From Oryzias latipes (Eukaryota; Chordata; Actinopteri; Beloniformes; Adrianichthyidae): a stretch of DNA of 64,000 nt. Below are positions 6,358-48,768 of this stretch, piece by piece. The stretch is from NCBI RefSeq assembly GCF_002234675.1, contig NC_019876.2:24547229-24611228 (forward strand), written 5' to 3'. Under the pieces are notes generated by a model. The model saw only the letters and a program-made list of their open reading frames with translations, ran no database searches and was not told where the DNA came from. A program made the position numbers and the translations under genes. Positions within the stretch are counted from its first letter, which is position 1, and each line of letters starts with the position of its first letter.

Positions 6358-8410
6358 TTGTAAACAAAACTTTCTAAGTGGCAAATGAAATTAAATAATA
6401 TTTGCTTCAAGAACTTTGCATTTTATCCCTCACCTGTCTGGTGATACTGCTCATATTTACTCTGCTGGGCTCAGATAAAGTCCTTCAATGGATTTTCAAG
6501 GTTATTTTGACCAGTTGGTTCTTGTGGGGAGAAAAGTTAGCACAATTTAAATTATTTTAGGAACAAAAAGTATTTGGACATTTTGACTTGAGGCAAGATG
6601 CTATAAAAAGGCGTTCACTTGATAATACTAGAGTAATTAATTGGACATAAAAAAGAGTCAATATATACAGTATATTAAGTTCCACAGCACCTGCAGCCCA
6701 TTTTTCAGACACCCTTTGCTGGACAGTGTCTTCTTGTATCGATAATTCCTTAGCTAGCTGATCAAGGTCTGCTGATGCCTCAGAAATCCTTGTTACTGTC
6801 AAAAACATTGCAACATTGTTGAGTAATGTTTGAATGAAAAAAGTAAAAACTTCTTAAAAAAACCTATCTGGTTTTTACCTTGATGCATCTTTTAGCTAGT
6901 GTCTGGTCAAGCTTTTCCACCTTCCGCTTGTTCCAGCCAATGGCCTGTATGAAAGGATATCTGTGGGTACTTCAAGCATCCCATTGTCATTGTTATTCCT
7001 GCTCCCTCCCAACTGCAACAAAGGTGATTTGCTTCTGTTAGCATGGAGCAGCATGATGGATGAGCAATGCAGGGATACCCACCATCACCAAAATGGATGT
7101 ATCCTTCAGGTGGGAATGTTTGATTGGCATAAATTGGTCTGTTATGCAGAACCCGTGAATCATGGACTAATCCTGGATATCCAAAAATATCTAAAAATGT
7201 GGCATTAGAATCACATACAGCCTGCATCTGAATGGAATAAAAAGATTCCTGTTAAAATAAACTGCATTTTCTTTTGGGCCCTTAATTCTTATGTGGCAGC
7301 CATCAATGCTCCCCATGACCTTTTGGAAGGCAGCAGACCCAGAGAGCTGCTCTAAACCAGTGGCGACTAATGGCAGTTCATTCACAGTGGGGAGCCGGAT
7401 GACCCTGTACATCAGCTGGAGGATGCGGTCTGACCATCAGCATAGAGGGCCAGGACAGAAACCTTAATGTTGGCAAAGCAGTAGAGAGGTGGAAGACCCT
7501 GTGAAATGTAACATTAATTATTCTATTTATGAAATTAAGTCTCATTTTTGGAATGTTTCTATTTATTTTGATGTCTGACATTTTATTTTATAAACTTTTA
7601 ATGCTGGAAAATCTCATTTGGCTAGATTTTTGGATTTTCCCATTGTTTTTTAAATATGAAACACTTTGTGTTGAAGGCTTATGTGGTTTTACTATGAAGA
7701 GAAAACACAAGACTTTCTCTGAACCCAATAGAGTGTTCAACCTTTCTGGAACAGAAGAGGTTAAAGCATTTTTCAACTGGAGCTCAATCTTTGGTTTGAC
7801 ATGAAAACATTTCCAGGAACAGCAGCTGCCTCCTCATATCTGAAACTTAAGGGGAAAAAGTGTCAGGTTGGTACAATCATAATACAAACCAATGCAAGCA
7901 ACTGAGTTAAAAAGGAATACATGTACATGAAATACATTTAATATTGCTATATTCATTAATCCATAAACAATTCTTTATTAACATAAATTAATCTTTAAAA
8001 CTTTAGAATCATCTTTTTGGAAGACTATTTACTTTGATGTTTCATGTCAAAGAATTTTCAAGGACACTGCAGGGAGTTGAACCCCTTCTAGCTGAAGCCA
8101 GAGTTCCATCTACCAGTGCCTTTTGCTTTTATGACTGAACATGGAAGCAAAGAAAAACCTGGAGTCCAACCAGCATATATACCCTCTCCATTTCTATGGG
8201 CTTGGGACCATCACAGAAAGTACACAGCTTTGTGACTCTCTGAGGCTGGATTATATATTTGTTTTTTATTTTATTTTCTTTACTGTTTTTAATTTTTTTT
8301 ATTACAAACCAAGAAATAACTATTGTACATTATATACATTTTCATAAATACATGGAAATAAATCCTAAAACAGTTTTAATTAATGACTGGAAGTAAACAT
8401 GTACACTTTT
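6358..8410 (-). mobile_element. Harbinger-like repeat copy 2
   Basis: Reverse-oriented relative of copy 1, carrying the same transposase remnants on the minus strand. It lacks the distal extension seen in copies 1 and 3 (it starts at TTGTAAACAAAAC). Its far side runs straight into the 3' flank of the 358-aa coiled-coil gene. Confidence 0.8.
6900..7480 (-). pseudogene. HARBI1-like transposase remnant (copy 2)
   Basis: Minus-strand pieces with MGSIDGCHIRIKGPKE, MQAVCDSNATFLDIFGYPG and VHDSRVLHNRPIYANQTFPP in two frames. A deletion near 7430 removes part of the N-terminal helical region present in copies 1 and 3. The third acidic residue is missing. Confidence 0.8.
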
Positions 8411-8499
8411 GTTAAAAGCTTCAATTTAACCACAAAAAATAAATGTTCTTAAAATCTTTTTCAATGTTTTCCTGGATATTACCAGTGTCTTGTGTCATT

Positions 8500-8815
8500 A
8501 CATTTAAGAATCTTGATTTTAACTTTTTTTGTGAGTGGGGGGAAACTAGAGCACCCAGAGAAAACCCCACGCATGCATGGAAAGAACACGCCAATTTAAC
8601 CATGCAGCCCGTTTTTTCACTTAAAAAACAAAAACAAAAAAACAAAAGTTGAACTCAATCACTGCACACACTCCCACTAGCTTCTAAACCCTGACCAATC
8701 ATGATTTACATCTTTTCTATTTTTGGTTGTGGGGGGAAAACTGGAGCACCCAGAGAAAAACCCACGCATGCATGGAAAGAACATGCAAACCTTACCATGC
8801 AGCCCCTTTTTTTAA
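8500..8815 (-). repeat. Conserved 3' flank block with ACCCAGAGAAAA...CACGCATGCATGG motif
   Basis: Two copies of a GGGGGAAA-CTRGAGCACCCAGAG block containing CACGCATGCATGGAA. The same block recurs at 17400-17676 and, twice, at 44800-45090. It links the Harbinger repeat to the coiled-coil genes. Confidence 0.7.
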
Positions 8816-8834
8816 GACAAGGTTCATCTTTTTT

Positions 8835-9911
8835 TTAATTGTGTGCAGTCGCTTGCGTGACTTTTTTAGAGCAAAACAATCTGCGCCAAAATTTGGTGAA
8901 AGAAAACCTCTTGACCTTCTTTCCTTTCTTTGGTTCCTCTTCTTCTACCTCAACCTGTTCTTCTGTGGTTTCTCCCTCTTTGGTGATGCATTCCTGATTC
9001 CCAGAGTCAGTCTGTACAGAGACTGTTTTCTTCTCCTCAGCATCAGAGTCAATCTGTACAGAGACTGTTTTCTTCTCCTCAGCATCAGAGTCAGTCTGTA
9101 CAGAGACTGTTTTATTCTCCTCAGCATCAGAGTCAGTCTGCACAGAGACTGTTTTCTTCTCTTTGTTTGCCTTCATTTCTTCCAACTCCCTTTTTGCATC
9201 TTCTGCTTCTTTTTCTCTGAGTTTGTTCAATTCAAGGAGAGCCTTTTTCTCCTCCTCATGTTTCTTCAGTTGCTCTTTCAGCTCAGTAATTGTGGATTCA
9301 TGCTGAGCAGAGACCTCCAGTTTCTTGTTTAGGTCAGCATTTTCTTTCTCCAAATCTTCAACTTCATTGACCAGAACTTGATTTTCTGCCTTTAGTTCCT
9401 CATTTTCCTCCTGAGACTCCTGATATTTTCTTTTAAGGTCCTCAAAGGCTTTGTTGGTGTCTGGTTTGGGTCCTTTGCCTCCCTTTGCAGCCTTCTGCTC
9501 TTTGAAATCTTTAAGCTGCTGTTTCAGCTTTTTGATGCAAGCTTCATTTTTGTCATTGATGTCCATTTGTTGGATCAACACGGCCTTGCACTCTTCCAGC
9601 TCCCAGACCATGTCAAGGTTGGCCTGTTTCAGGGTCAACTGTTCTTCAGTCGTCTGATCTTTCTCTTCTTTTAAGTTGTTGAATTTCTGTCTCAACTCTT
9701 TGGTGTCAGTTGAAACAGCAAGTTCTTCTAGTTCTTTCTTCAATTGAGCATTTTCATGCTCAAGAGCTTCCACCTTGGTAGAAAGAGCCTGGCCTTTTTT
9801 GTCCTGGATGAGGTTTTCATGGGCCTTTTTCAGCGTGTTGAGTTCCTCCAGAACTTGACTGAGTTTTGGGCTTGGATTGTTGCGCCTGTTTGCCTTAGTT
9901 ACACGGGGCAT
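8835..9911 (-). CDS. Intronless coiled-coil protein with four VQTD repeats (358 aa), unnamed
   Basis: I do not recognise this gene. The ATG at 9911 (MPRVTKANRR) is used; the open frame continues three codons upstream without an ATG. Residues about 15-240 are a charged, heptad-rich coiled coil. Residues about 250-303 hold four tandem copies of a 14-residue unit (consensus [14 protein letters not shown]), encoded by a 42-bp repeat. A short Glu-rich stretch follows. The C-terminus is a basic aromatic segment, [17 protein letters not shown], that could form a membrane-binding amphipathic helix. There is no signal peptide or obvious enzyme domain. A truncated copy lies at 23416-23934, and a larger relative with a similar C-terminus at 46345-48768. 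The long open frame and a partial copy with the same repeats favour a real gene; expression is not shown. Confidence 0.7.
   Translation of the reverse strand: MPRVTKANRRNNPSPKLSQVLEELNTLKKAHENLIQDKKGQALSTKVEALEHENAQLKKELEELAVSTDTKELRQKFNNLKEEKDQTTEEQLTLKQANLDMVWELEECKAVLIQQMDINDKNEACIKKLKQQLKDFKEQKAAKGGKGPKPDTNKAFEDLKRKYQESQEENEELKAENQVLVNEVEDLEKENADLNKKLEVSAQHESTITELKEQLKKHEEEKKALLELNKLREKEAEDAKRELEEMKANKEKKTVSVQTDSDAEENKTVSVQTDSDAEEKKTVSVQIDSDAEEKKTVSVQTDSGNQECITKEGETTEEQVEVEEEEPKKGKKVKRFSFTKFWRRLFCSKKVTQATAHN
9003..9160 (-). repeat. 42-bp tandem repeat encoding the VQTD units
   Basis: About 3.8 copies of a 42-bp unit (starts at 9003, 9045, 9087, 9129) inside the coiled-coil gene. Differences are mostly single bases. 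The copy at 23416-23934 has one unit fewer, so the array changes length. Confidence 0.9.
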
Positions 9912-10129
9912 TTTTACCACTTGTTAGGTGTAAAATAACAGAAATGACAGAGTTTCCAGAAGATTGCAGAAACAAAAGCTTTTTGTCTCTGCAAAGAATG
10001 AGCTCCAAGTGTCCAAGTTTCCAAAGTACTCTTTCTAGAGCAATAACCTTAGATCTCTTCAACCACAGCGAATGTTTTGACTAGAAATCTGAGATGTATA
10101 TGTGGACTAGAGTGGCAGTCTACAATATG

Positions 10130-10410
10130 TCACATTATGTCATGTGATGTCATGTGATGTCATATGATGTCATGATGACAAACTCACATCAGGTGCTCTG
10201 ACATCATCATTACATAAGGGCATTGATGTCACGTGAGATCTATGACATCACTAAACCCCTTTATCTTTAGAATTGTATACCTTTTATCTCTTGTTGTTTT
10301 TTTCTATTTTTTAATTAATTAGTAACTAACAAAAGCACCAACATCAGGTTGGTATAGTCATCATGACATCATAAAGCAGTTGGTGACATCAATGGGTCTT
10401 GACTTGGGCT
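10130..10410. promoter_or_regulatory. Cluster of TGACATCA/TGATGTCA octamers upstream of the 358-aa gene
   Basis: Many copies of ATGACATCA-like words on both strands, one base from the CRE consensus TGACGTCA. A similar cluster lies just upstream of the 807-aa coiled-coil gene. The function is inferred; the array could be a degenerate satellite. Confidence 0.45.
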
Positions 10411-10419: not shown

Positions 10420-10478
10420 GTTGCCTAGCAACATGACTAAGGCATCATCAAAGGGCCTTTGTCATGTTGCTAGGCAAC
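10420..10478. promoter_or_regulatory. Paired X-box-like palindromes upstream of the 358-aa coiled-coil gene
   Basis: GTTGCCTAGCAAC at 10420-10432 fits the RFX X-box form GTNRCC-N-RGYAAC. Its exact reverse complement GTTGCTAGGCAAC is at 10466-10478. With the adjoining bases they make a perfect 18-bp inverted repeat (10420-10437 and 10461-10478). The site is about 510-570 bp upstream of the ATG at 9911. It could instead be part of a dispersed repeat. Confidence 0.45.
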
Positions 10479-15597: not shown

Positions 15598-18500
15598 CTG
15601 CAGGAAGAAGCAACATGGAGATGAATCACAGGATATTAGCTACAAAAACGTCTACAAGCTTTCTCCAAAGGCGTCTTTATGTTGTCTACTCCTGATTCAC
15701 GACAATTTGAATAAAGAAACACTCAAAAATGCAGTTTTAATCTTCATTTTCTTTATATAAGTCTTCCATCATCAGGAAAATGTTTGTGTTAAACACCCAA
15801 AACACAGTTTTCATTATAGTGGGTCTTTGAATATAACCTAGAAACTGCAGGAAAGCCTTGAATCATTATTCCTGTAAAGAACCACACTAAACTAGAAACT
15901 TCCTGCTGAACTTGGAGAAATGGAGCCTGGATCATCCAGAAACATCAGGACTGATAAAAAACAAGTCAAAACCATGAACTGCAGACAGGAGAGACGCTTC
16001 TTCATCAAGAACAGCCATTTCTGCTGAATCATGAAACATGGTATGAAGAGATTTTCAGTGCAGTCGGCTCCTGGTGATGCTCTCACCTGTCCGTCTGCTT
16101 TACCAATAGGAGAGTTGAGGATGAAGTCGGGCGGAGCCAAGACGTCCACCAGAGCAACGGCGTCATCCTTCAGCTGAGCCACAAACAGATTCAGCATCAG
16201 CATCATCAGCCATAGTCATTGCTCTGTGGGTGGATGTCTTTGTGTACCTGGGAGCAGAGAGCCAGGATTGCTGTCTGCAGCAGCTCTGCAGGCCTCCTTC
16301 CATTCACATATCCGCCTGCACACAGATCACCTTTGTGTTACCAGCTCTGCCTCCAGCAGACCGCCTCCTTCTCAACATACCCTGGTACAGTGTGGCCATG
16401 TGGCTGCTGAGGCTCCACAGTCCATACAGGGAGAAGAGCTTGCTGAGAACGGCTCTGAGAGCAGCCGGCGTGTCCTGATCTGAGATCAGCTGCTGACAGT
16501 TCTGCAGACAGCAGTGCTCCATGAAGGCGATGGCCAGAGACCTGCAGAAGTAAACCTGGACAAAGACGGCCGCAGCTTCAACGTCTGAAACCAGGAGGAC
16601 AAAGTAGAACACCAAAGTGTTGGCCTATTAGACTGGAATTCTGTTCAAAGCGCCACCTTAGGGTCATCAGTGGTATTTCACTGCAGGAATTCTGTGATCA
16701 GGAGCCGTTTTCACAGATTTTGGAGATTTCAGACTAAAAGTGATTCAGGAAACTTCTCAGAGCAACAATGGAGAAGAAAAACAGAAGTGGTTTAACCTGA
16801 TCCTATGAAGGATGAATCATTTTAATAAATCAAAATGTGGTTAACACCATAATTACACGAGGATAAGAGGGGCATTACTGATGTTTGATTTTGTAAATAA
16901 ATGTAAAAGAACTAGGCCAGAAGAGCAGCGTCTACTGAGCCTGATTAACGAGACACGAGACAGAAGTTGACTGTGTGCTGTTTGTGTTCCAGCTGCTCAC
17001 TAAAGGCTAACTCTAAAATAAATCCACATTTGTCCGGGTCATCCTTTCAAGTGTGCAACATATATACCCTCTCCATTTCTATGGGCTTGGGACCATCACA
17101 GAAAGTACACAGCTTTGTGACTCTGAGGCTGGATTATGTATTTGTTTTTTTATTTTATTTTCTTTACTGTTTTTAATTTTTTTTTATTACAAACTAAGAA
17201 ATAACTATTGTGCATTATATACATTTGCATAAATACATGGAAATAAAACCTAAAACAGTTTTAATTAATGACTGGAAGTAAACATGAACATTTTTGTTAA
17301 AAGCTTCAATTTAACCACAAAAAATAAATGTTCTTAAAATCTTTTTCAATGTTTTCCAGGATATTACCAGTGTCTTGTGTCATTACATTTAAGAATCTTG
17401 ATTTTAACTTTTTTTGTGTGTGGGGGGAAACTAGAGCTGAGAAAACCCCACGCATGCATGGAAAGAACACGCCAATTTAACCTTGCAGCCCGTTTTTTCA
17501 ATTAAAAAACAAAAACAAAAAAACAAAAGTTGAACTCAATCACTGCACACACTCCCACTAGCTTCTAAACCCTGACCAATCATGATTTACATCTTTTCTA
17601 TTTTTGGTTGTGGGGGGAAAACTGGAGCACCCAGAGAAAAACCCACGCATGCATGGAAAGAACATGCAAACCTTACTGTGACAGAGCACAAGTCTGTCAC
17701 GATTTGAGTTAAATAAAGTGTATTTGCTTCTGACAGCATCAGTGGGTGCACACACTGTATAGCTGTAAACTTCCAACAGTTCTTGCAATTCACTTTATTT
17801 ATTTTCTGTTTTTGGTTGTTTTCTATGTCTTATCTGTTTACTTCCTGATTTCATAGGAGTACTTCCTGTATCCTGAATGTCCAGTGGACCCACCTATTGT
17901 TTTGGTTTCCTTTGACAGGCCTGTTTTAAATTCAAAATGATTTCTTTTTATTTTGCATTTTTGTTTAAAGAATGTTGTTAAAGTTTGGACTTCTTTGTCT
18001 AATTATTGCTTTGGTAATTAGGAAAATGCATGTAATTGTTCTTTTGTTTTTAGGAAATGTTTGATTTTGATTGTTAATTGTGTTTGTTTGGCAAGGGGTG
18101 GAGCCAACCACCTATAAAAGAGGACCTCTTTTCAAGATGGAGTCTGTCTGGTGATGTCTGGCTGCCATGCTGCTGCACTGTAGGCTGCAGACTTGCCACA
18201 TTATTTTCAATGGGTGCATTTTTCCCCACATTCTGCCTTACAACTACATAAAGAATGAGAGCACTTTGACTCTTTGTGTGGACAGTAGTTTGTAATTCTG
18301 ACATATGGTGTCAGAAGTGGGATCAGTGTCTTGGAAGGAGGCCAAATATGGCAAGCCGCAAAGGCCCAAAGAGGAGCTACGCACGTCCCACAATGCGAAC
18401 CAGAAGTCAAGCGGTGAAGGATGAGGAAGTCGAACCAGACTGGGAAACCGATGACGATGGGCCATCAGCAGAGCGTCCCGGCCCGAGTGGAGATGTGGAG

Positions 18501-21500
18501 CAGCCTAAGATGGTGGAAATGCTCCAGCAGTTCCTTGGCGCACAGAGGACCAGAGAAGAGGGTTTGTTGGCTGAACTGAAGAACCTGAGGGTGGTTCTCC
18601 AATCCCAGAGACAACCTGCATCAGATGTAAGTGACTCTCCACGCGCAGTTAGGAGTGAGGCCTCCTTATTGCCACTCCCAACACCAGCGCCCCCACATCG
18701 TCGAACAGATTGCGATGAAGTTGACATGGACATGACAGCTGTACCCTCCATGATGCAACCACCACCCTTCCATCGGAAGGACCCCAAGATGCTACCATAT
18801 CAGCCGGAGGAAGATATTGAAAATTTTTTACTCCGTTTTGAGAGGATTGCAAAGACTTGGGGTTGGGTGTACACTGAATGGGCATACAGACTTGTACCAT
18901 TGTTAACAGGAAAGGCTCTAGCAGCCTACTCAGCGATGGATGAGGACCTCTCAGACTCCTATCCTGATATCAAGGAGGCTTTATTGGCCAAATTTAATGT
19001 CTCAGCTGAGACCTATAGACAACGTTTCAGAGACACTAATGTCCCACAAGGGGAGTTGCCTACAGAGACCTATCATCGTCTTAGGGGTTTATATCGTCGA
19101 TGGATAAGGCCTGACCAACGTGGTGTAGAAGATATTGGAGAAATCATCATCTTGGAACAGTTTCTTCGGACCTTACCCCCTGATATACGCACGTGGGTGA
19201 AGGAGCATGAACCACCAACTGGGATGGAAGCAGCTAAACTTGCAACACAGTACATTAATGCTCACAGAACAACTGGCCCAAGGACACAGCAGCGGGTCTT
19301 TCATCACACCCTTGGAGATGGGCGGCGGCCGGTTGACAAAAGACCAGAGGCTCAGAGAACCGGCAGTGGCGTGAGTAAGACTACACCTCGTGGTGACAAT
19401 GCAGGACAGGCTTTAATCTGCTATTATTGTCAGCAGCCTGGACATAAAGCTTCTGTGTGTCCTCTTAAAAAGCCCAAAATGTCTGGTTATTGTTGTGTGC
19501 CACAAATGAGTGTTACTAAGTTGCAACATCCATGTTCAGACCCTGCTTCTTCCTACCCAGTGATTGTTAATGGTGTTCATTTAACTGCTTTATTAGACAG
19601 CGGCAGTTCCAAGTCTTTGGTAAAGAAATGTTATTTACCAGACCATGTTCTCAATTATAAGAACAAAACTGTTATTGAGTGTGTCCATGGAGATGGCAAA
19701 GTATATCCCACTGCTGAAGTTACTTTGGATCTGGATGATCGAGCATTTCTTTTGCAAGTTGCAGTGTTGGACAAAATGCCAGTGGATTGTGTTATTGGGA
19801 GGGATTGTCCTCTTTTGTGGGACTTACTTGGGGACAAAAGACAGACCAATGTTGTTGCTGTAGTCACAAGGTCTCAGGTTAAGGCTGGGCTGGAACCTCT
19901 TCCAGATCTTCATGGTGATCTTTTTGAGGGCGGCTACAAAGGCCAAAAGAAAACACGGCGTCAACGCCGTCAAGAAAAGCATAGAGGGTCTTTTGAATCT
20001 CTTGAACAGAAACCTCAATGTCAGAATTTTGTTTGGGATGTACCAAATGACATTAGACATTTGCAGTTGACTGACACTACTTTGGCTTTTCTGTATAATC
20101 AAGTTGAAACTGAAACTGACAATGTCTCTACAGATACAAAATGTGTGTTAGATAACGATATTTTGTATATTCAGGGAGAAACAGGTAAGCGGTTGGTAGT
20201 GCCTACTGGATGCAGATCTGTAGTTTTGCACCTAGCTCATACAGTTCCATGGGCAGGACACCTGGGCCATCTAAAAACATATGCAAGATTAGCAAAGCGC
20301 TTTTACTGGCCAGGTATGTTTAAAGATGTCAGAGACTTTTGTGCTTCATGCCCTCAGTGCCAGCTGACCAGTTTAAATAAGGTTAAACAAGCACCGCTAC
20401 ATCCTCTGCCAGTTATTAGTACCCCTTTCCAGCGCATTGCCATGGATATTGTAGGACCCCTGGAGAAAAGCAGTTCTGGAAACAAATATATTCTGGTCAT
20501 CTGTGATTATGCAACCCGCTTTCCGGAAGCTTTCCCTTTACGTACCATCAAAACGAAGGCAATAATAAATGCTCTTGTTCAGCTTTTTTCTCGTGTAGGA
20601 GTGCCGAGCGAAATCCTGACTGATCAAGGTACCAACTTCACCTCCAACCTGATGTTACTACTGCATAAAGAACTGGGCATCAAAGGAATCCGGACAACGC
20701 CATATCATCCACAAACTGATGGCCTGGTGGAGAGATTTAATCAGAGTCTCAAGCAGATGTTGCGTAAATTTGTTTCAGAAACTGGACGTGACTGGGATAA
20801 ATGGTTGCCTTTTCTCCTGTTTGCATACAGAGAAGTTCCCCAGGCTTCCACAGGTTTCTCCCCATTTGAGCTCCTGTACGGGTGGCCAGTCCAGGGACCC
20901 TTGGATTTGCTGAGAAAAGAATGGGAAGCAAGTAAGAAACCAGTGGCTGAGGGAATCCTGTCCTATGTACTTCAGATGAGGAATCATTTGGAAAAGTACA
21001 GGGACCTGGCACAAGAGAACCTTACCAGAGCCCAAAGAGACCAAAAATCCTGGTATGACAAGAAAGCTCGTCAGCGTGAGTTGGAACCAGGTAAAAAAGT
21101 TTTGATACTTTTACCGCTGACGGCAAACAAACTTTTGGCTAAATGGCAGGGTCCATATGAAGTGATTAGACGGGTTGGTCCAGTAACATATGAAATAGCA
21201 CACCCAGACAAAGGGAAGCACAGTCAAATATATCACGTCAATTTGCTGAAAGAGTGGAAAGACCGTGAGCAACTACAATCTCAACAGACATTAATGGTGT
21301 GCAAAATACACGAGGATGGTGATGACCCTATTACCTGTATGCCAGATGTTTCTTCTATGCAGCCTCGATTGGATCATCTTTCACTTCAACAGAAACAGGA
21401 GATGTTGGATCTACTGGCACAAGTACCTGGCCTGTTCAAGGATGGACCAGGGAGGACTTCGCTAGTCCAACACACCATCCATCTAAAAGATTCTGCACCT

Positions 21501-24500
21501 ATTCGACAGAGGCCTTACAGGATCCCTGAGTGTCTGACACACTCTCTTAAGGAGGAAATCAAGAAAATGACAGACTTGGGGGTCATTGAGCCATCTGAAA
21601 GTGAATGGTCTAGTCCAGTGGTAATGGTTCCGAAGAAGGATGGGTCCCAGCGTCTTTGCATTGATTTTAGAAAAGTGAATGCTGTGTCCCGCTTTGATGC
21701 ATACCCCATGCCTCGTGTTGATGACCTGGTAGAGTGTATCGGAAAAGCCCACTATCTGACCACATTAGACCTATGTAAGGGCTATTGGCAGATTCCATTG
21801 GAAGCGGCCTCCAGGCAATACACAGCTTTTCGAACACCAGGGGGTTTATATCAATTCACAGTGATGCCATTTGGGCTCCATGGAGCACCTGCCACTTTTC
21901 AGAGACTAATGGATACACTTCTGAGGGGTTGTGAAAGTTACTGTTCTGCCTATCTAGATGATGTGGTGGTTTTTAGCCATTCATGGGAAGATCACAAGAG
22001 ACATCTTAAAAATGTTCTCACAAACATTGAGAAGGCAGGACTAACACTCAATCCACAGAAATGCGAGTGGGCGAGGATGGAAACCCAGTACCTTGGATTT
22101 CAACTGGGCGGTGGCAACATTCGTCCCATGGTTGATAAGGTGGAGGCAATACAGAAGACTGAACGACCCCGCACCAAGAAACAGCTGAGATCTTTTCTTG
22201 GACTTGTTGGTTGGTACAGCAGATTCATCCCACATTTTGCAACCATGGCAACACCTCTTACGAATCTCACCCGCAAATCCTCACCAAATCCAATTCGATG
22301 GTCAGTTGATTGTGAAAGGTCTTTTGATGCCTTGAAGAATGCCATGTGCTCTTCTCCAGTTTTGTGCAGTCCAGACTTCCAGAAACATTTTTTGGTGCAG
22401 GTGGACGCCTCAGACGTTGGACTTGGAGCAGTTCTGACCCAGAAAACTGAAGGACAAGAAAGACCTGTACTGTATCTAAGTCGTAAGCTGCTGCCAAGAG
22501 AAACCAGGTACTCGACTGTAGAAAAAGAAGCGCTTGCAATCAAATGGGCCTTGGACAGTTTGAAATATTATCTCTTGGGGCGTGACTTTGATCTGGAGTC
22601 AGATCATAGAGCGCTGCAATGGATCCATACTATGAAGGATCACAACCCCAGGATCATGAGATGGTACCTTGCCTTACAACCTTTCAGTTTCAGCATACGT
22701 CACAAGCCTGGAAGAAACAACACCTTGGCAGACTACTTATCTAGATTTCCCACAATGGCAGCGCTCGGAGAGGGGGAAAGTAATGTGACAGAGCACAAGT
22801 CTGTCACGATTTGAGTTAAATAAAGTGTATTTGCTTCTGACAGCATCAGTGGGTGCACACACTGTATAGCTGTAAACTTCCAACAGTTCTTGCAATTCAC
22901 TTTATTTATTTTCTGTTTTTGGTTGTTTTCTATGTCTTATCTGTTTACTTCCTGATTTCATAGGAGTACTTCCTGTATCCTGAATGTCCAGTGGACCCAC
23001 CTATTGTTTTGGTTTCCTTTGACAGGCCTGTTTTAAATTCAAAATGATTTCTTTTTATTTTGCATTTTTGTTTAAAGAATGTTGTTAAAGTTTGGACTTC
23101 TTTGTCTAATTATTGCTTTGGTAATTAGGAAAATGCATGTAATTGTTCTTTTGTTTTTAGGAAATGTTTGATTTTGATTGTTAATTGTGTTTGTTTGGCA
23201 AGGGGTGGAGCCAACCACCTATAAAAGAGGACCTCTTTTCAAGATGGAGTCTGTCTGGTGATGTCTGGCTGCCATGCTGCTGCACTGTAGGCTGCAGACT
23301 TGCCACATTATTTTCAATGGGTGCATTTTTCCCCACATTCTGCCTTACAACTACATAAAGAATGAGAGCACTTTGACTCTTTGTGTGGACAGTAGTTTGT
23401 AATTCTGACACTTACCATGCAGCCCCTTTTTTTAAGACTAGGTTGATCTTTTTTTTTAATTGTGTGCAGTCGCTTGCTTGACTTTTTTAGAGCAAAACAA
23501 TCTGCGCCAAAATTTGGTGAAGGAAAACCTCTTGACCTTCTTTCCTTTCTTTGGTTCCTCTTCTTCTACCTCAACCTGTTCTTCTGTGGTTTCTCCCTCT
23601 TTGGTGATGCATTCCTGATTCCCAGAGTCAGTCTGTACAGAGACTGTTTTCTTCTCCTCAGCATCAGAGTCAGTCTGTACAGAGACTGTTTTCTTCTCCT
23701 CAGCATCAGAGTCAGTCTGCACAGAGACTGTTTTCTTCTCTTTGTTTGCCTTCATTTCTTCCAACTCCCTTTTTGCATCTTCTGCTTCTTTTTCTCTGAG
23801 TTTGTTCAATTCAAGGAGAGCCTTTTTCTCCTCCTCATGTTTCTTCAGTTGCTCTTTCAGCTCAGTAATTGTGGATTCATGCTGAGCAGAGACCTCCAGT
23901 TTCTTGTTTAGGTCAGCATTTTCTTTCTCCAAGTTTAGTTTATTAAATTAGTTTTATAAACTAATTTAATCAAATATTAAAGGATAATTAAAGAGGTTTT
24001 CATGACCAGATGATGATTTCTATGAAGCTTTTTCTCTGAAATTATTGTTACATTTTTCTTTAACAAACTTATATAGTAGAGTGATGGGAAAGCTCTGCAA
24101 TTTCAGTCATTTCAAAGATAATTTAATAGTAAATGCTTGATGCAAATGATCTGACCTGCTAAAGAAAGAAGGAACTAAACGCATCAGGGGGACAGTGATT
24201 AAAAAACATTCAAAATTTCCTGATGAGTAAGTTTAGAAAACATTGTGATCACAGCTCCAGATCTTCTTTTCTGCGTTCCATCTTCTCTACATTTACTTTA
24301 CATTTTTACAGTTTAACCCTTGTGCTATCTTAGATGACCCCACCCTTTCATTGACGTGTTCTCCCTACCATGACAAAGGTGGATAAAGGTGGAAAGATTT
24401 CATGTAATCCATGGACACCAGTGAAGATCACAAATCATTGAAGAAAAAAGGTTCAGAGCACTGTCTAGTGGGTCTAGATGACCCAACTCCCAACGTTAAA

Positions 24501-36500: not shown

Positions 36501-39500
36501 TCGCACTGATGAGCTCTGAAGAGCTGGTGTTTTTCTTCCAGAAGAGCTGTGATTTTGGCATCATTTTCATCGAACCAGTCTTGATGATTCCTGGTAACTG
36601 GTCCGAGCACCTTAAGGGCAGCAGAATGAATTGTTGTCTTCAAGGAGTCCCAGTCGTTTCCGATATCCTCAGTCAACTGATTTTCTAGGCTTTCTACTAG
36701 TTTTTCTTGAATGAAAGGGAGCTTAAGCTTGTTGACATTGAGCTTTTTTACAACCGTCTGACCCTGTGGTCTTCTTTTGGACTGAATATGCATATTGGTC
36801 TTAGAAATGATGAGACGATGGTCCGTCCAACAGTCAGCACCACACATCGCCTTAGTCACGCAAACATCCCGTCTGTCCTTTGCTCTGACGATGACGTAGT
36901 CGATGAGGTGCCAATGCTTAGATCGAGGGTGCATCCAAGATGTTTTCTTTCGAGATGGGAGGCGGAACATGGTGTTGGTGATAGCTAAGCCATGGGTGGC
37001 GCACATTCTAAGCAGGAGGAGACCGTTACTGTTGCATTTTCCTACTCCATGGTGTCCGAGGACACCTTCCCAAGCCTGGTGGTCTTGACCTACACGAGCA
37101 TTAAAGTCGCCAAGAAGTAGAAGCTTATCCGACTGCGGAACAGTGGAAATGAGGGCATCCAGTTCTTCATAGAACTTCTCCTTAGCATCTTCCGGGTTAG
37201 TCATGGTGGGGGCGTAAGCGCTAATGAGGGTAGCGGATCTCCCTCTGCCCAGTGAGAGCTTGAGTTTCATGAGACGATCGTTTATGCCTTCTGGTATATT
37301 GTCAAGTTTCCCTATAAGATGATCTTTGATTGCAAAGCCAACACCAGACTCACGTCGCTCTTCACTACTGCGGCCACTCCAGAAAAAGGTGTAGCCGCCT
37401 CCGATCTCATTGAGCTGGCCTTTGCCTGGGAAGCGTGTTTCGCTGAGGGCTGCAATGTCGACGTTATAACGGGCAAGTTCTCTCGCTACGAGGGCCGTTC
37501 GTCTTTCTGGTCTCCTTGACTTACAGGTGGTTGAGTCGAGGAGAGTTCTAACGTTCCATGACGCAAGGGTGAGCTTGAGTGTTTTCTTCTTGAGTATTTT
37601 CTTGTAATTTCGACCGCAGTGTGGGAACCCGCCAGCTGCGGTATGCTGGCCAGGTGTGTTGTGGAACAGGCTATGTTTAGAGCACCTTTTCTAGCTCCGT
37701 CCTCAGGCTACGGAGGCAGGCAGAGCTATCCTGAATAGGGCTGCCTGGTCGCTTAGGGGGCTGCCGGACTTCCCTGCTGTCCCAATCAGAGAAGAACGAC
37801 CGTATGGCCTAAGCCGCCTGTGTGTAGGATTGCAGCTACAGCTTCCAGTGATTCCGCACCTGCTGCTTCGCCGTTCCCCCATCGCCACAGGGCTTTGAAT
37901 AGGTCGATGAAAGTATTGCTATGACGTGCGCTGTACTTGGATTAAAGTGAAGGTGGCTTGCGCAGCACCAGCCTCACTCTCTCGTCCTGGTGAGCCTGAC
38001 CCAACGGCAAGACAGGGCCAAGACAGTTGGAGACTCATCGAGGGTGCAGGAGCTGCCGGAGAGGGACGAAGTACGCCTTCTAACCGTCTGCGGGGCTTCA
38101 CTCCGGATTTGCTGTCGGGGTTTACTCCCTTAGCCTTTAGCCAACCAAGACCGACCTGCAAGGCAACAGGAGGCTTATGCCACGCAGTCTCCATTATTTC
38201 GCCGAGACCCTGGCACGGGGGGCTAAGTGGGTACTCGATCTTGCCCAAGGATCTCCCACGGACTAGTGGAGGGAAGGAGGTGTCCTACTTCTCCATTCTA
38301 GACCTGCTCCAGGCTGGGCCTAGCCACCCAGGCTGGGCCTAGCCAAAAATATTTTCTGGAATTTTATCAGGTACTACGGGTATAATCACCTATGATGCCC
38401 TGGTTATTTAGGTCTTTTGAAACAAAGTGACCCATAATGCACTCCTTATGACTCACTCCTTTGTTGAGAAAGACCTTGGCGAGGCAGGACCAGTCGTACA
38501 TGCCGAGGCAGTCCTCCAGGGTTTTCAGCTTCCAGGGGTTCCCATACGCTTCTTCTTTTGTCAGGAAATTGTAGCGAAAAATTTGCTTCATCCTGCAGGT
38601 TCTAAAATTCTCGTCAGAAAATGTTTGTGAAGAGCAAGATCATTTATTCATCATACGTGGTCACCTGAGGAAGTTCAACTCTCTCATTTTCTCTAAGGAG
38701 AGGTCTTCTCCTGGCTGACGGGCAAACAGAGGATCGTTCTCCAGACTCTTGAAGATGTATTCCTGCATGAAGAATACAAAGAATACAGAATACATGCAGA
38801 CAAAACAAAAAGGGCACCACATTAAACAATGTAGTGGTTCCATAGATTGTAAAAATAATGGACAGCTCAACCCCTCCCTTCTCGTCTTCCCAAATAGGAT
38901 GTACCATTGCTTCCTGGTATGGGCGCTGCCATGTTGAAACCAGTTTACAATGATTGAGTTGCTCTGAGTCATTGTATCTATGGTCACTACATTGCCATAG
39001 ATACGATGACTCAGAACGACTCAGACCAATTACTGTCGACTGGTTTCAACATGGCGGCGCCCGTATCAGGAAGTGTTGTTTTTATGGTCTATGAGTGAAC
39101 GTAGAACAGATACGTTTATTTCCAGACACTTTTTACAGGGAGACTGTTTCAACCAGGAAAGGTTTCATCAGGTTTGGTTTAGTCAAACAAACATAAAATT
39201 AGTCAAATGGAAAAGCACCGACTTTCAAAACTGCACAAAAACACAAGAAACAACCAATGTTTGGCAACAAAATATAAGAATGTAGATTAATACAAATTAT
39301 TTTATAAAACAGTTTGATAATAAAATTTCATTTAAATGCTCTGAAACTCTAACATTTTTCAGCTCTTCGAATTTGAACCACTGTAGTCTTTTCTTTCACT
39401 TCATACGAACTAGAAAAATTCTGATGTTTAAAAGCTGCAAATCTGAACTCAAACAGCCTTAAAGTTCCACTCTGATCCTCTTTAAAGTTATTATAAGTGT

Positions 39501-41860: not shown

Positions 41861-42267
41861 CTGCTACGTAGTCCTGATGAGCTGTGTACAATCATCAGGA
41901 GTGCACAGCCGTCACAAAGCCACAAAAATGCAGATTCATTTTAAAAATGAAAAAGCAATTCTGGTTTTGACTTTTATTTTTAACTATGCTACACAAATGT
42001 TTCAATACCTTCACTGTTTTTGAGTTTTAAAATGTCAGCTTTTTTCAAAATGTTATTTAAAAGAAACATTTAGATATTGTCATGAACAGCTGAAAATGCA
42101 GCTGTGTAAATATTAGTCTCCAGAAACACTGTTCTGGTTCACTACTGCCACCTGCTGGCATAAATGACAGTCAAGTAAAGCTCCATAAGTGAGTGATGAG
42201 CATAAACATGAAGCTGCCTCATAACAGCTAAAAAAATTCCAAATGCCTGAAGCAGAAGAATGAGGCA

Positions 42268-44690
42268 AAAAAGAAAACCTTACATAACATTTTTGATGAA
42301 ATGTAAAGCTCTATATGTTTTATTTAAAAACTGATATAAATCCAAGGGTACATATCTGTACAGCATATCTTTCTTGCTGCAATGATTTAATGCCACTTGT
42401 TTTATATAAAGTAATATGTATCCAAAGACATTGTAAACAAAACTTTCTAAGTGGCAAATGAAATTAAATAATATTTGCTTCAAGAACTTTGCATTTTATC
42501 CCTCACCTGTCTGGTGATACTGCTCATATTTCCTCTGCTGGGCTCAGATAAAGTCCTTCAATGGATTTTCAAGGTGATTTTGACCAGTTGGTTCTTGTGG
42601 GGAGAAAAGTTAACACATTTCATATTATTATATGAGTATTTGGACATTTTGACTTGAGCCAAGATGCTATAAAAAGGCGTTCACTTGATATTACTAGAGT
42701 TCACTACTAGAATAATTATTGGACATAAAAAAGTGTCAATATATATATTAAGTTCCACAGCACCTGCAGCCCACTTTTAAGCATCAGACACCCATTGCTG
42801 GACAGTGTTTTCTTGTACCGATAGTTCTGTTGTCAGCTGATCAAGGTCTGCTGATGCCTCAGAAATCCTTTGTACTGTCAAAAACATTGTTGAGTAATGT
42901 TTGAATGAAAAAAGTAAAAACCTATCTGGTTTTTACCTTGATGCATCTTTTAGCTAGTGTCTGGTCAAGCTTTTCCACCTTCCGCTTGTTCCAGCCAATG
43001 GCCTGTATGATAAAGATATCTGTGGGTACTTCAAGCATCCCATTGTCATTGTTATTCCTGCTCCCTCCCAACTGCAACAAAGGTGATTTGCTTCTGTTAG
43101 CATGGAGCAGCATGATGGTTGAGCAATGCAGAGATACCCACCATCACCAAAATGGATGTATCCTTCAGGTGGGAATGTTTGATTGGCATAAATTGGTCTG
43201 TAACGCAGAACCCGTGAATCATGGACTGATCTTGGATGCCCTACAAAAATATCTAAAAATGTGGCATTAGAATCACATACAGCCTGCATCTGAATGGAAT
43301 AAAAAGATTCCTGTTAAAATAAACTGCATTTTCTTTTGGGGCCTTAATTCTTATGTTGCAGCCATCAATGCTCCCCATGGCCTTTTGGAAGGCAGCAGAC
43401 CCAGAGAGCTGCTCTAAACCAGTGGCGACTAATGGCAGTTCATTCACAGTGGGGAGCCGGATGACCCTGTACATCAGCTGGAGGATGCGGTCTGCCGTCC
43501 TGTGGACAAAGTCCCTCACAGTGGACCGTGGCGTGTCAAAGGCTCTGGCTACCACACAGTGAGATGTGCCACACGCCAACCAGAAAAGGAACACCAGGAC
43601 CTTAGTGTCCTGTACCCCCCCAGAGTGAGAGGAACCCGAAGCTGCTCCACCAGATGCCCGATGGTCCTGCGGGTCAACCGAAAGTCCGGTCTTGTGTCGG
43701 ACTGACCATCAGCATAGAGGGCCAGGACAGAAACCTTAATGTTGGCCAAGCAGTAGAGAGGTGGAAGACCCTGTGAAATGTAACATTAATTATTCTATTT
43801 ATGAAATTAAGTCTCATTTTTGGAATGTTTCTATTTATTTTGATGTCTGACATTTTATTTTATAAAGTATTAAGGCTGGAAAATCTCATTTGGCTAGATT
43901 TTTGGATTTTCCCATTGTTTTTTTAAATATGAAACACTTTGTGTTGAAGGCTACTATGGTTTTACTATGAAGAGAAAACACAAGACTTTCTCTGAACCCA
44001 ATAGAGTGTTCAACCTTTCTGGAACAGAAGAGGTTAAAGCATTTTTCAACTGGAGCTCAATCTTTGGTTTGACATGAAGACATTTCCAGGAACAGCAGCT
44101 GCCTCCTCATATCTGAAACTTAAGGGAAAAAAGTGTCAGGTTGGTACAATCATAATACAAACTAATGCAAGCAACTGAGTTAAAAAATAATACATTTACA
44201 TGAAATACATTTAATATTTCTATATTCATCAATCCCTAAACAATTCTTCATCAACATAAATTAATCTTTAAAACTTTAGAATCCTCTTTTTTGGAAGACT
44301 ATTTACTTTGATGTTTCATGTCAAAGAATTTTCAAGGACACTGCAGGGAGTTGAACCCCGTCTAGCTGAAGCCAGAGTACCATCTACCAGTGCCTTTTGC
44401 TTTTTTGACTGAACATGGAAGCTAAGAAAAACCTGGAGTCCAACCAGCATATATACCCTCTCCATTTCTATGGGCTTGGGACCATCACAGAAAGTACACA
44501 GCTTAGTGACTCTCTGAGGCTGGATTATATATGTTTTTTTATTTTAACTTTTTTTAATTTTAATTTTATTATTACAAACTAACACATAACTAGTTATTGT
44601 ACATTATATATATTTGCATAAATACATGGAAATAAAATATAATACAGTTTTAATTAATGACTGGAAGTAAACATGTACATTTTTGTTAAA
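42268..44690 (-). mobile_element. Harbinger-like repeat copy 3 (uninterrupted)
   Basis: The most complete of the three similar copies. It includes the distal 160 bp (42268-42430) also seen in copy 1 and the whole internal region. It lies on the 3' side of the 807-aa coiled-coil gene, same strand. The minus-strand transposase remnants are broken in the same ways as in copies 1 and 2. Confidence 0.8.
42950..43750 (-). pseudogene. HARBI1-like transposase remnant (copy 3)
   Basis: Segments in order on the minus strand: RPDFRLTRRTIGHLVEQLRV (near 43700), FLFWLACGTSHCVVARAFDT (near 43590), MGSIDGCNIRIKAPKE (Asp 1), MQAVCDSNATFLDIF and HDSRVLRYRPIYANQTFPPE (Asp 2). The frame changes and the missing third acidic residue are the same as in copy 1. 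Confidence 0.8.
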
Positions 44691-44789
44691 AGCTTCAATT
44701 TAACCACAAAAAATAAATGTTCTTAAAATCTTTTTCAATGTTTTCCAGGATATTACCAGTGTCTTGTGTCATTACATTTAGGAATCGTG

Positions 44790-45180
44790 ATTTTCACTTT
44801 TTTTTGTGTGTGGGGGGAAACTAGAGCACCCAGAGAAAACCCCACGCATGCATGGAACGAACACGCCAATTTAACCATGCAGCCCGTTTTTTTAATTAAA
44901 AAACAAAAACAAAAAAACAAAAAATTGAAATCAATAACTGCACACACTCCCACTAGCATCTGAACCCTGACCAATCATGATTTACATCTTTTCCATTTTT
45001 GGTTGTGGGGGGAAACTAGAGCACCCAGAGAAAACCCCACGCATGCATGGAACGAACACGCCAATTTAACCATGCAGCCCGTTTTTTTAATTAAAATAAA
45101 TCCATAAAAGTTGAACTCAATCACTACACACACTCCCACTAGCATCTGAACCCTGACCAATTTTGATTTACATATTTTAT
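44790..45180 (-). repeat. 3' flank block, tandemly duplicated
   Basis: Two copies (44810-44990 and 45005-45170) of the GGGGGAAACTAGAGCACCCAG block with CACGCATGCATGGAACGAAC. The same block adjoins the 358-aa gene. Confidence 0.75.
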
Positions 45181-45470
45181 ATTTTTGGGCACGCAAACCC
45201 CTCCACCGCAATAAGGTGGCAATTCAAGGAGGGGGGATTTTTGTAACTTTTAAGATACATAATACTTTTGCTATTTTTGTAATTTCTTTTTATTTATTTT
45301 TTATTCTAATTATTAGGGAACTAAAATAAAACTGTACAGTGATTAAAATAAACTTTTTTTTTATAACCAAACAAAATAAAAACTCAGACAAAAAGTAAAA
45401 CAAAACTGAAGTAGTTAAAGAAAACCTAGCTAAGACGTAAAAGGGGAGTCGTGGAAAGTTACCTTTAAAA

Positions 45471-45866
45471 CATTCATTCATTTTTTTCATTTTCTTAACC
45501 GTTTTATCCCTTTTGGGGTCACAGGGCTGCCGGAGCCTATCCTGGCCACTTGTGACTTGTCACTTCTGAACAAGTCGCCAGTTTGTTGCAGGGTAGAATG
45601 TCCTCACTCACACACCCATTCACTCCCGCATTCACACCTGTGGTCAATTTAGAGTTGCCAATTAACCTATGAAGCATGTTTTTGGATGGTGGGAGGAAGC
45701 TGGAGACCCCGGAGAGAACCCACACATGCACGGGGAGAACATGCAAACTCCACACAGAAAGGTCCCCCACTGATGTTCTGTTTTTCACGTCCCCCAGCCG
45801 GGACTTGAACCGGGGGCCTTCTTGCTGTGAGGCAAGAGCGCTAACCACTGCGCCACCGTGCAGCCC
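45471..45866 (-). mobile_element. tRNA-derived SINE-like repeat
   Basis: On the minus strand it starts GCTGCACGGTGGCGCAGTGG, then TTAGCGCTCTTGCC and a B-box GGTTCAAGTCCC. The body includes the fish repeat signature GTTTGCATGTTCTCCCCGTG. It ends ACCCCAAAAGGGATAAAACG with an (AATG)n tail. Lies between Harbinger copy 3 and the 807-aa gene. Confidence 0.8.
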
Positions 45867-46101: not shown

Positions 46102-46119
46102 GGGGGGGGGGGGGGGGGG
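46102..46119 (+). repeat. Poly(G) run
   Basis: 18 consecutive G residues between two SINE-like repeats. Confidence 0.9.
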
Positions 46120-46133
46120 CTTGGCCTGTGTGA

Positions 46134-46346
46134 GGTAAATGGCGTTTACTTATAAAGTGCTTTTCCACCTTCTTTGAAGGCCCAAAGCCTTCACACACAT
46201 ATTTACACACTGGCGCCGACCTTCCACCAGAGGGATGGTGGGGTTCAGTGTCCTGCCCAAGGACACAAGGGCGTGCAAGGCAGGAATTGAACCTGCAACA
46301 ATTCGATCAGGGGTCGACCGCCCTACCACTGCACCGCGGTCGTCTC
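46134..46346 (-). mobile_element. tRNA-derived SINE-like repeat abutting the 807-aa gene stop
   Basis: Minus strand reads GACCGCGGTGCAGTGGTAGG, then GTTGCAGGTTCAATTCCTGC (B-box), then GTCCTTGGGCAGGACACTGA. Its head touches the stop region of the 807-aa coiled-coil ORF. Confidence 0.75.
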
Positions 46347-48768
46347 AGGGTTGTGGTGGGGTGGGGGTAGAGGGCTCTCTCTCCAGAGCTGTGGTGGGGG
46401 GTCCACTTAGTCTTTTTTTTCTAGATCTTCTAAACAGGTTCAGGAACCTCCGACCAACATTTTTCTTTGTCGTCTTCTCTTTCAGCTCATCCACCTGCTG
46501 CTGTAGTTGATGAACTTGGAGCTGGAAATCCTCTTGAGTTTTTCTGATGATGGTCTTTTTCTTCTTGACAACTTTCTTTAGGTGAGCGATTTGTTGTGAA
46601 AGAGTGGACTTTTCTTCTTCCAGCTGTTGTCTTTCTTCTTCCAGCTGCTGCTGGCCTTCCAGTTCTTTCTGGACCAAAGCAGCTCTTAATTTGGTGGACT
46701 CCTCTACCTCCAGGTCAAAGCTGTGTCTGGCTTGATTTGTTTTGACCCTCTCTTGTTTAAGCTCTTCTTCCACTTGGTGTAATTTCATGCTGAGGTCCAA
46801 ATTCTTCTTGTCAGAGGCCTTTTTTACCGTCTCAAGCTGTTTGTCTTTTTGCTCCAGCTTCTCCCTCAAGATGACCTTAGAATTGCTTATGACCGCATCT
46901 TTTTCTTTGATGGTTTCTTTTAATTTTCCCATGGCCTTCTTGTTATTGGAGAGCAATTCTGAAATGTTCTTTTCACTTTGGTAACAGGCTGCCTTCTGCT
47001 CCTCACATTTTCTTTCTAATTCAGCTATTTTTTCCAGCATGGAGTCCTTTTCCCTATTCCATGCTTCTCTGTCTTCATCCATCTGATCTTGTTCTGTCTC
47101 CAACATCATAGCATAGTGATATTGAAGATCCCCTTTCTCCTTTTCCAAATTTGTGGTAAGCTCCAAACGTTCCTGCTGTTGCTTCCTTTCTAGACCCTCA
47201 ATCTGATTTTGGAGCTGGACGATCTTTTTCTTGGAGACCCTTACAGAATTGCTTAAGATCACATCTTTTTCTCTGATGGTTTCTCTTAACTGTTCCATGC
47301 CCTTCTCATTATTGGAGCGCAATTCCAAAAAGTTCTTTTCAGTTGCGGCCTTATCCTCCTCATGAGCTTTTCTTAGTTCAGCCATTTCTTGCTTGATGGA
47401 GGTGTTTTCTTCTCTTTCTTTAGCCAGCTGAGTTAGTGCTTCTGTTAATGTCAGCTCATGGTAATTTAGAAGACACTCTTTCTCCATTTCCCATTTGCTG
47501 GTGAGGTCCAAATGTTCCTGCTCATGCTGCACTTTTAGGTCGTGCATCTGACGGAGTAGTTGGACCATCTTTTTCTTGGAGACTCTTTTAGACTCAGTGA
47601 CCTGGGTCTCCTTGTCCTCCTGAGCTGACTTTAGCTGAGCCATTTCTTTGAAGACGGAGGACTTTTCTTCCTGCCATTGCTGTCTTTCTTGGCTCATCTC
47701 TTCTACCAACTCATCGGCTTTCCGAGCGGCTTCCCGCAGCATATAATCTTTCTTCCGTTGCTCCATTTTTAGGTCGTCGATCTGACCTAGTAGTTTTACG
47801 ATCCTTGTCCTGGAGACCTTTTCAAATTTGCTCATGATGGTCTCTTTTTCTGTGATGGTTTCTCTTAACTGTTCCATGCTCTTCGCATTATTGGAGAGCG
47901 CCTCCAGAAAGTTCTTTTCAGTTGCGGCCTTATCCTGCTCATGAACTTTTCTTAGTTCAGCCATTTGTTGCTTGAGGGAGGTGTTTTCTTCTCTTTCTTT
48001 AGCCAGATGGTTTTTGGCTTCTGTTAATGCCAGCTGATGGTCATTTAGAAGACGCTCTTTTGCTAAAAGTTCTGTCTTGTGGCTCATCTGTTCTTCAAAG
48101 TGATCAGCTTTGAGAGCAGCATCCGCCAGCTTCTGATCTTTCTGCTGGAGAAGCTCCTTCAGACGCTCTACTTCACTTTTCAGAGCAGTGTTCTCTACTT
48201 GAAGTGCTTCTGCGTTCTCCACTGAGGTCGACTCAGAGGTTGAAGTCGGCTCATCCAAAGCAGTTGAATTTTGTTTTCCCTTTCCCAAGGGTTTGATTTC
48301 CTCAGGCTGAGCTGATTTAGGGACAGACACCGGCTTCACAGGAAAAAATGCAGCTGGGCGAAAGGAGACGGGTGGAGCAAAACTTAAGGGTTTTAACCCT
48401 AAGGTTTGGTTTTGTGGGCAGGTTTTAGGCTTGAGGTTTCCCCAATCCTGCTGTCTTTTTGGTTCAGGGGTTTCTGGCGTCTCAGGAAATTCTTCATCCT
48501 CATTTTCAGAAAGGGGAGAGTAAACATAGTGAGGAGTTCCTGGAGTCTCGGGAAATTCCTCCTCCTCCTCCTCATCATCATCCAAAGGGGGAGGGTAATC
48601 ATTGTCTTCGTCAGTGTCATCCCAGTCCATGAAAGTGTTTAGATTTTTAGGACGGGTAGAATCAAACCCAAAATAAAAAGTGGACTCGTTCTCCACAACA
48701 GAATCAAAATAGCTGAGTTGCAAATTCTTGGTGCTTTTTCGGACAGGACGGCGTCTTGATGGTTCCAT
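46345..48768 (-). CDS. Intronless large coiled-coil protein (807 aa), unnamed
   Basis: Not recognised by name. It starts MEPSRRRPVRKSTKN at the ATG 48768. Residues about 50-100 are very acidic with PETP repeats. From about 183 to 765 it is almost continuous heptad coiled coil. Two long segments, each starting LAKEREENTS (near residues 255 and 447, about 192 apart), are similar, and a weaker third follows, so the rod grew by internal duplication. A KETQV motif near residue 388 resembles an LC8 anchor. The C-terminus has basic aromatic GRRFLNLFRRSRKKR and then a proline-rich tail, recalling the end of the 358-aa gene. The stop falls at the edge of a SINE-like repeat, so the last residues may be repeat-derived. 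No intron or frameshift was seen. Confidence 0.7.
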   Translation of the reverse strand: MEPSRRRPVRKSTKNLQLSYFDSVVENESTFYFGFDSTRPKNLNTFMDWDDTDEDNDYPPPLDDDEEEEEEFPETPGTPHYVYSPLSENEDEEFPETPETPEPKRQQDWGNLKPKTCPQNQTLGLKPLSFAPPVSFRPAAFFPVKPVSVPKSAQPEEIKPLGKGKQNSTALDEPTSTSESTSVENAEALQVENTALKSEVERLKELLQQKDQKLADAALKADHFEEQMSHKTELLAKERLLNDHQLALTEAKNHLAKEREENTSLKQQMAELRKVHEQDKAATEKNFLEALSNNAKSMEQLRETITEKETIMSKFEKVSRTRIVKLLGQIDDLKMEQRKKDYMLREAARKADELVEEMSQERQQWQEEKSSVFKEMAQLKSAQEDKETQVTESKRVSKKKMVQLLRQMHDLKVQHEQEHLDLTSKWEMEKECLLNYHELTLTEALTQLAKEREENTSIKQEMAELRKAHEEDKAATEKNFLELRSNNEKGMEQLRETIREKDVILSNSVRVSKKKIVQLQNQIEGLERKQQQERLELTTNLEKEKGDLQYHYAMMLETEQDQMDEDREAWNREKDSMLEKIAELERKCEEQKAACYQSEKNISELLSNNKKAMGKLKETIKEKDAVISNSKVILREKLEQKDKQLETVKKASDKKNLDLSMKLHQVEEELKQERVKTNQARHSFDLEVEESTKLRAALVQKELEGQQQLEEERQQLEEEKSTLSQQIAHLKKVVKKKKTIIRKTQEDFQLQVHQLQQQVDELKEKTTKKNVGRRFLNLFRRSRKKRLSGPPTTALEREPSTPTPPQP

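Follow-up and report, generated by a model that had tools for sequence, protein, structure and literature searches.

The 64,000-nucleotide stretch of the medaka (Oryzias latipes) genome analyzed here (C18:24547229-24611228; hereafter the window) contains two long open reading frames (ORFs), ORF1 and ORF2, which probably belong to a larger regulon of young, multi-copy, one-exon gene families driven by a tandem array of bZIP-type sites resembling the cAMP response element (CRE). The two ORFs and their candidate promoters are as follows:

8835..9911, minus strand: ORF1 (family F1), 358 aa, frame open, no intron in the coding frame
46345..48768, minus strand: ORF2 (family F2), 807 aa, coiled-coil-like, frame open, no intron in the coding frame
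10145..10391: putative ORF1 promoter array, eight TGATGTCA/TGACATCA octamers, 241-480 bp upstream of the ATG
48952..48999: putative ORF2 promoter array, three octamers, 191-231 bp upstream of the ATG

A sequence-only reading of the window had placed both frames on the minus strand, and both proved to be open. A cluster of CRE-like octamers 190-480 bp before the ATG is common to them. The octamer TGATGTCA/TGACATCA occurs at 14 places in the window, of which eight fall in the 500 bp preceding ORF1 and three precede ORF2; three of the eight in the ORF1 array follow a 10-bp period. TGATGTCA is the CpG-deaminated form of the canonical CRE TGACGTCA, described in PMC1796609 as a functional variant of lower affinity. 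Because of this, and because some arrays also hold canonical sites (six of 11 at locus L046 and two of seven at L049), we read the array as bZIP/CRE-type and infer that it acts as a promoter.

The genome searches covered 734 Mb in 25 contigs, and their counts are lower bounds wherever only top candidates were scored. For ORF1 they returned 16 clear loci, on C18, C1, C2 and C9, plus two weak ones. Two of the clear loci are copies A (which contains ORF1) and B of the window; around the other 16 places (14 clear, two weak) 9.9 kb each was fetched, and these together with copy A make up the 17 loci examined, copy B being left out. ORF1 is full length at 11 of the 17. Four to eight octamers lie within 500 bp upstream in all 11 full-length copies, compared with clusters in one of the six broken copies; loci L023 and L025-L028 have at most two octamers each over the whole 9.9 kb and no cluster. 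The comparison of substitution rates among copies that the sequence-only reading proposed gave a median ratio of nonsynonymous to synonymous changes (dN/dS) of 0.38, with a range of 0.17-0.62 (76 pairs with dS >0.03 among 13 copies, two of them truncated; residues 1-250). ORF1 is under purifying selection.

At the loci tested, across a whole vertebrate genome, this simple DNA signature predicts the starts of multi-copy one-exon genes. The tandem-pair pattern TGAYRTCANNTGAYRTCA has 234 genome sites compared with 21 for the reversed control, and the strict pattern TGATGTCANNTGATGTCA has 116 compared with 10 in its control. The strict sites listed, 100 of the 116 and running to C20, were mapped to ATGs taken from the family searches and sampled loci, several sites possibly serving one gene. 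Sixty of them stand 147-295 bp upstream of a mapped family ATG, whereas shifting the sites 40 times gave 0.2 on average. Five more listed strict sites, on C2, were placed by hand 161-179 bp upstream of F6 copies, one of which is decayed with many stops. At C2:17.17-17.28 Mb 12 pair sites are listed, and each of them precedes an F6 copy by ~210-230 bp. This region (C2:17168603-17276257) holds 12 tandem F6 copies, ten with frames of 400-402 aa.

When nine array loci were read blind, every one proved to have a one-exon ORF that starts just past the array and runs away from it. Seven of these ORFs have at least 374 aa, four of them exceeding the fetched sequence; the other two (C13 and C19) reach 128 and 96 aa at the fetched end and lie within frames of 873 and 588 aa. 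As a baseline, a random point in the window has the ATG of an ORF of at least 300 aa 100-400 bp away in 1-2% of cases. Arrays hold 3-11 sites per cluster. TATA-like stretches between array and ATG were seen by eye in many promoters, and a strict TATA pattern is present in five of 17, in two of these upstream of most octamers. Pair sites listed besides those above include:

C1:348417, C1:357670, C1:1907283, C1:35145305, C2:24552599, C3:34389130: further sites from the TGAYRTCANNTGAYRTCA search

The signature ties together gene families without mutual BLASTP similarity, at least eight of which have arrays. No cross-family match at 1e-3 was found among F1-F9 with the low-complexity filter on, F5, F7 and F8 being represented by one sequence each and the F7-F9 sequences being partial. 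ORF2 has at least 22 loci (on C18, C21, C23, C5, C17, C11, C4 and C8), with matches that come within eight residues of the N terminus. In addition to these loci, C23:12492383-12584492 is a more divergent tandem cluster of more than ten ORF2-related genes, whose frames are mostly ~609-664 aa and in some cases broken. The sequence-only reading had joined ORF1 and ORF2 through a coiled-coil rod and a basic-aromatic C terminus. Similarity of coiled-coil type is indeed present, and it is the only kind found between the proteins (BLASTP E 0.001, unfiltered); the coding regions have no DNA homology, and a single family was rejected at the BLAST level.

Other families were reached through the DNA that follows ORF1 on its 3' side, which has two parts:

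8411..8815: ORF1 3' flank block, two ~195-bp units, related to a dispersed repeat
7728..8410: distal half of the ORF1 3' module, parts of which recur downstream of F3, F4 and F5 ORFs

On C10 the block lies downstream of an 818-aa ORF (F3) for which a protein kinase match was obtained (E 6e-11); in tblastn it matches neither ORF1 nor ORF2. At the two loci of this kinase-like family whose upstream DNA was read, the 323 bp before the ATG contain six and five octamers; the protein's AlphaFold model is too poor for use (pLDDT, the model's per-residue confidence, 36). Of five further places reached through the distal module, two (C6 and C11) show octamers ahead of a long one-exon ORF. The longest C11 frame starts inside the octamer cluster, and its distance was taken from a later ATG, leaving the start uncertain. 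Array loci sampled genome-wide belong to F4, F6, F7, F8 and F9, several of them coiled-coil by eye. Selection was also estimated for a pair of F4 copies (dN/dS 0.32).

Several observations weigh against a common regulon. Thirty-five of the 100 listed strict sites have no assigned gene, and the nine blind loci were not a random sample, most of them having several sites. By family, over C1-C19, a strict site accompanies 13 of 17 F2 and 15 of 22 F9 loci, and only five of 13 F1 and two of 13 F3 loci, the F1 and F3 copies that were read having looser octamer clusters. The F2 loci were mapped before any array search, whereas F6 and F9 positions were derived from array sampling and hence are not independent of the arrays. 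For four of the broken ORF1 copies, partial matches served to extrapolate the position of the start. Three of the five distal-module places lack octamers: those on C4 (L042) and C1 (L044) have no family ORF either, and on C19 (L040) there is an ORF of 216 aa that, by eye, is similar to the end of the C11 protein. Nor is dN/dS low in young pairs (1.6 for K1/K1b and 1.5 for an F6 pair, with few changes each; 0.76 for K1/K2; 0.72 for an F2 pair) or in an F9 pair (0.63). Finally, 'intronless' here denotes a single long open coding frame, and introns in untranslated regions are possible.

We nevertheless consider a regulon with ORF1 and ORF2 as two of its members the likely explanation. Its arrays are composed of bZIP/CRE-type octamers, TGACGTCA and the CpG-deaminated TGATGTCA/TGACATCA, often at a 10-bp period and mostly 100-400 bp upstream. 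The binder is most likely a CREB/ATF/CREM-type factor, which would activate the set jointly. Copies would have spread through segmental and tandem duplication, and neighboring copies may recombine, which would explain the ORF1-type 3' module that ORF2 carries on C18. By analogy with the systems considered next, the set is probably timed to the germline or early embryo.

The earliest zygotic genes of zebrafish were reportedly found by Heyn et al. in 2014 to be short and newly evolved. The present set would resemble them in being short, lineage-specific and switched on together; to our knowledge, a tandem CRE-type promoter is no part of their description. CREM-driven, intronless spermatid genes have CRE-type sites close by. 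They resemble the genes studied here in that such sites lie near intronless genes (cf. PMC3285179 and PMC3428356), and differ in that here many unrelated multi-copy families share dense arrays. Promoters with the TG variant of the CRE have the same octamer and the same CpG-deaminated variant as found here; as far as PMC1796609 describes them, their sites lie near vertebrate transcription starts generally, whereas here clusters of 3-11 sites mark multi-copy families. On chromosome 13, a medaka gonad study (PMC8633743) reports two ovary-biased regions of ~1 Mb. The interval C13:19.14-20.14 Mb contains five F9 loci with arrays, a match to those regions at the level of the chromosome; the likeness would be one of clustered, co-expressed and possibly lineage-specific genes. 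A search of the open-licence literature found no description of this combination of array and one-exon gene, nor anything on the tissues in which the genes are expressed. With one motif class and dozens of targets, how lineage-specific genes are born and regulated can be put to a direct test in a laboratory fish.

It is conceivable, although we hold this only tentatively, that a promoter-and-flank chassis repeatedly acquires or swaps unrelated ORFs, genes being born via a common regulatory cassette. If so, one tandem-CRE switch would feed the turnover of new one-exon genes.

About as tentative is a retrogene origin, by which each family would be the processed copy of a different parent gene. 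Frames of up to ~1000 codons without introns speak for it, as does an A-rich stretch ~20 bp beyond the ORF1 stop, but the parents were not found, no fish protein database having been searched. Moreover, the copies carry upstream and downstream DNA, so their present spread appears to be by DNA duplication. We regard as somewhat less probable still that all families descend from one ancestral gene, the ORF of a single, very fast-evolving family having diverged past recognition. Parts of the 3' module do follow F1, the C18 copies of F2 and certain members of F3, F4 and F5 in one and the same orientation (for the last three families at some hundred bp to ~3 kb), and several families are coiled-coil with basic tails, as judged by eye. 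However, the kinase match of F3 and the lack of cross-family BLASTP matches at 1e-3 argue against it, and the distance from module to stop varies from ~30 bp to >1 kb.

An array that is merely a repeat duplicated along with each family, with no regulatory role, is unlikely. The upstream regions of the ORF1 family are homologous by descent and dispersed repeats are common around these loci, as this explanation would have it. Yet the kinase-like upstream region has no BLASTN match to those of ORF1 and ORF2 in the loci compared while the octamers recur, the 60 strict sites keep a narrow distance from the ATG, and clusters go with intact rather than broken ORF1 copies. Least probable is a mobile cassette, in which a coiled-coil ORF with a Harbinger-derived flank was amplified by a transposon: the flank block is at all 16 clear ORF1 loci and an ORF predicted left of the window exists, but most full-length copies lack Harbinger, the ends of similarity in copy A are not unit ends (sequence shared among other copies extends beyond them in both directions), and no precise ends common to all copies were seen, no systematic search for target-site duplications having been made.

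The evidence on this last point comes from the repeats around ORF1 and ORF2:

6357..7727, minus strand: Harbinger copy A, from self-comparison, family assigned via copy 1
42266..43997, minus strand: Harbinger copy C, from self-comparison
1-1941 and 4718-4901 (span 1..4901), plus strand: Harbinger copy 1, split by an insertion, its ORF1 copy left of the window
43998..45188: ORF1-type 3' module and block downstream of ORF2, apparently a chimeric junction

The sequence-only reading had the same 3' block followed by a Harbinger repeat at all of the coiled-coil ORFs, spreading with them as a transposon-derived flank. Self-comparison of the window bore out the positions of the repeat, the block and an ORF1 fragment at 23416-23934. 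The coiled-coil ORF predicted to the left of position 1 also exists (C18:24545772-24546803, plus strand, 97% identical, ending 426 bp before the window) and, together with the 16 clear loci, supports a young, amplifying gene family. The block holds up as a companion of the ORF1 copies; Harbinger does not. It is attached to two of the 11 full-length copies, copy A and the one left of the window, and the other nine have none within the sequence examined (9.9 kb per fetched locus).

Harbinger copy 1 is of PIF/Harbinger type, as its stop-free piece 1065-1421 matches the transposase domain DDE_Tnp_4 (E 1.7e-11); its piece 670-1122 has no domain match. The likeness to PIF/Harbinger DNA transposons lies in this match, and the difference is that most ORF1 copies occur without the element. 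The genome listing comprised the best 40 candidates, copy A itself not among them. Among the matches listed, 35 are relatives at 82-85% identity, 29 of them on other chromosomes. None of these 29 is within 10 kb of an ORF1 match, and two are within 10 kb of an ORF2-family match, both in one C5 tandem unit. The listed copies at 94-97% are confined to C18, where some of them neighbor the ORF2 copies at 25.18 and 25.22 Mb. As a spreading agent Harbinger was rejected because most ORF1 copies lack it and the listed relatives lie elsewhere; we read it as a local passenger riding in C18 duplications. When its 3' end was compared by BLASTN with the DNA upstream of ORF1 and ORF2, no strong inverted counterpart appeared.

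The flank block adjoins all 16 clear ORF1 loci and is missing at the two weak ones. Its motif CACGCATGCATGG has exactly six exact occurrences in the window, and 15 with up to two mismatches where 1.1 are expected; in ten of the 11 full-length ORF1 copies it lies 61-62 bp beyond the stop. The block resembles a dispersed repeat (79% over 71 bp at ~45679-45748), and the genome search returned ~60-90-bp matches to it across many chromosomes. At C17:7103128 it is present with no ORF1 or ORF2 match, the longest ORF in 3.7 kb being 181 aa. Co-occurrence, on which the sequence-only reading had staked its proposal, fails for Harbinger and stands for the block. The two are separable because their similarity boundaries part them: that of a Harbinger fragment at 57941-58790 stops at about window position 7724, and that of most other ORF1 copies at 7728, with nothing below. 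Positions 10333 and 7728 were considered as precise ends of a mobile element and rejected, as the flank comparison showed them to be merely where copy A diverges.

All four C18 copies of ORF2 have the ORF1-type block downstream, and no block or module match was found, among the matches listed, beside ORF2 copies on other chromosomes. In the window, 1157 bp separate the ORF2 stop from the end of the block at 45188, and the intervening stretches match other, unrelated loci too. ORF2 with its ORF1-type 3' module on C18 thus appears chimeric, joining parts of two families.

ORF1 probably encodes a helical scaffold that has a basic tail and putative docking repeats of LC8 type (VQT). Its AlphaFold model (mean pLDDT 60) has helices at 15-64, 70-142 and 150-255, forming a rod from ~15 to 255, followed by an unstructured linker and a terminal helix (338-356) of low confidence. 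The linker contains four VQTD/VQID-type repeats, candidates for LC8-type (TQT-type) docking motifs in a disordered linker beside a coiled coil; the sequence SVQTD at 256-260 is unchanged in all 11 full-length copies, as is a 14-residue stretch of the tail. The C-terminal tail is basic-aromatic and in the 11 full-length copies has KRFSFTKF followed by RRLF or a near variant. Searches of Pfam and of solved structures with ORF1 and ORF2 gave nothing over curated cut-offs and weak matches of coiled-coil type only. The copy at L022 (C18:23593000-23602900) encodes 592 aa with 17 VQTD-type repeats. Further upstream of ORF1, at 10420-10478, are two palindromes resembling the RFX X-box; they lie outside the part that most other ORF1 copies share.

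The second ORF1 copy in the window is interrupted by a long terminal repeat (LTR) element:

17056..17676: copy B, left part (3' module and block), continuous with 23411-23932
17677..23410, plus strand: LTR element inside copy B, with a gag-pol ORF and a 5-bp duplication, CTTAC
23411..23932, minus strand: copy B, right part, truncated 3' half of an ORF1 copy

The repeat at 17060-17676 and the fragment at 23416-23934 are both present as first read; taken as separate pieces, they are instead one continuous copy of 8171-9353, split by the 5.7-kb element. The possibility that copy B is a poly-A-tailed retrocopy was rejected, as there is no poly-A tail at its left end. The LTR element is young: its LTRs differ at one position of 630, its insertion came with the duplication CTTAC, and it has a single open gag-pol frame of 1488 aa, the gag part of which matches a SCAN domain. 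Its integrase precedes the reverse transcriptase, a layout that we take to be Gmr1-like.

Elsewhere in the window, an open 959-aa endonuclease/reverse transcriptase frame of a long interspersed nuclear element lies at 34391-37270 on the minus strand. The insertion within Harbinger copy 1 (1942-4717) is GC-rich (~68% at 2001-4000) and terminates in a run of 26 A. Two short repeats, at 24307-24524 and 29459-29677, are 96% identical to each other and possibly represent a miniature inverted-repeat transposable element, and 60970-64000 holds 118-119-bp tandem repeats in inverted arrays.

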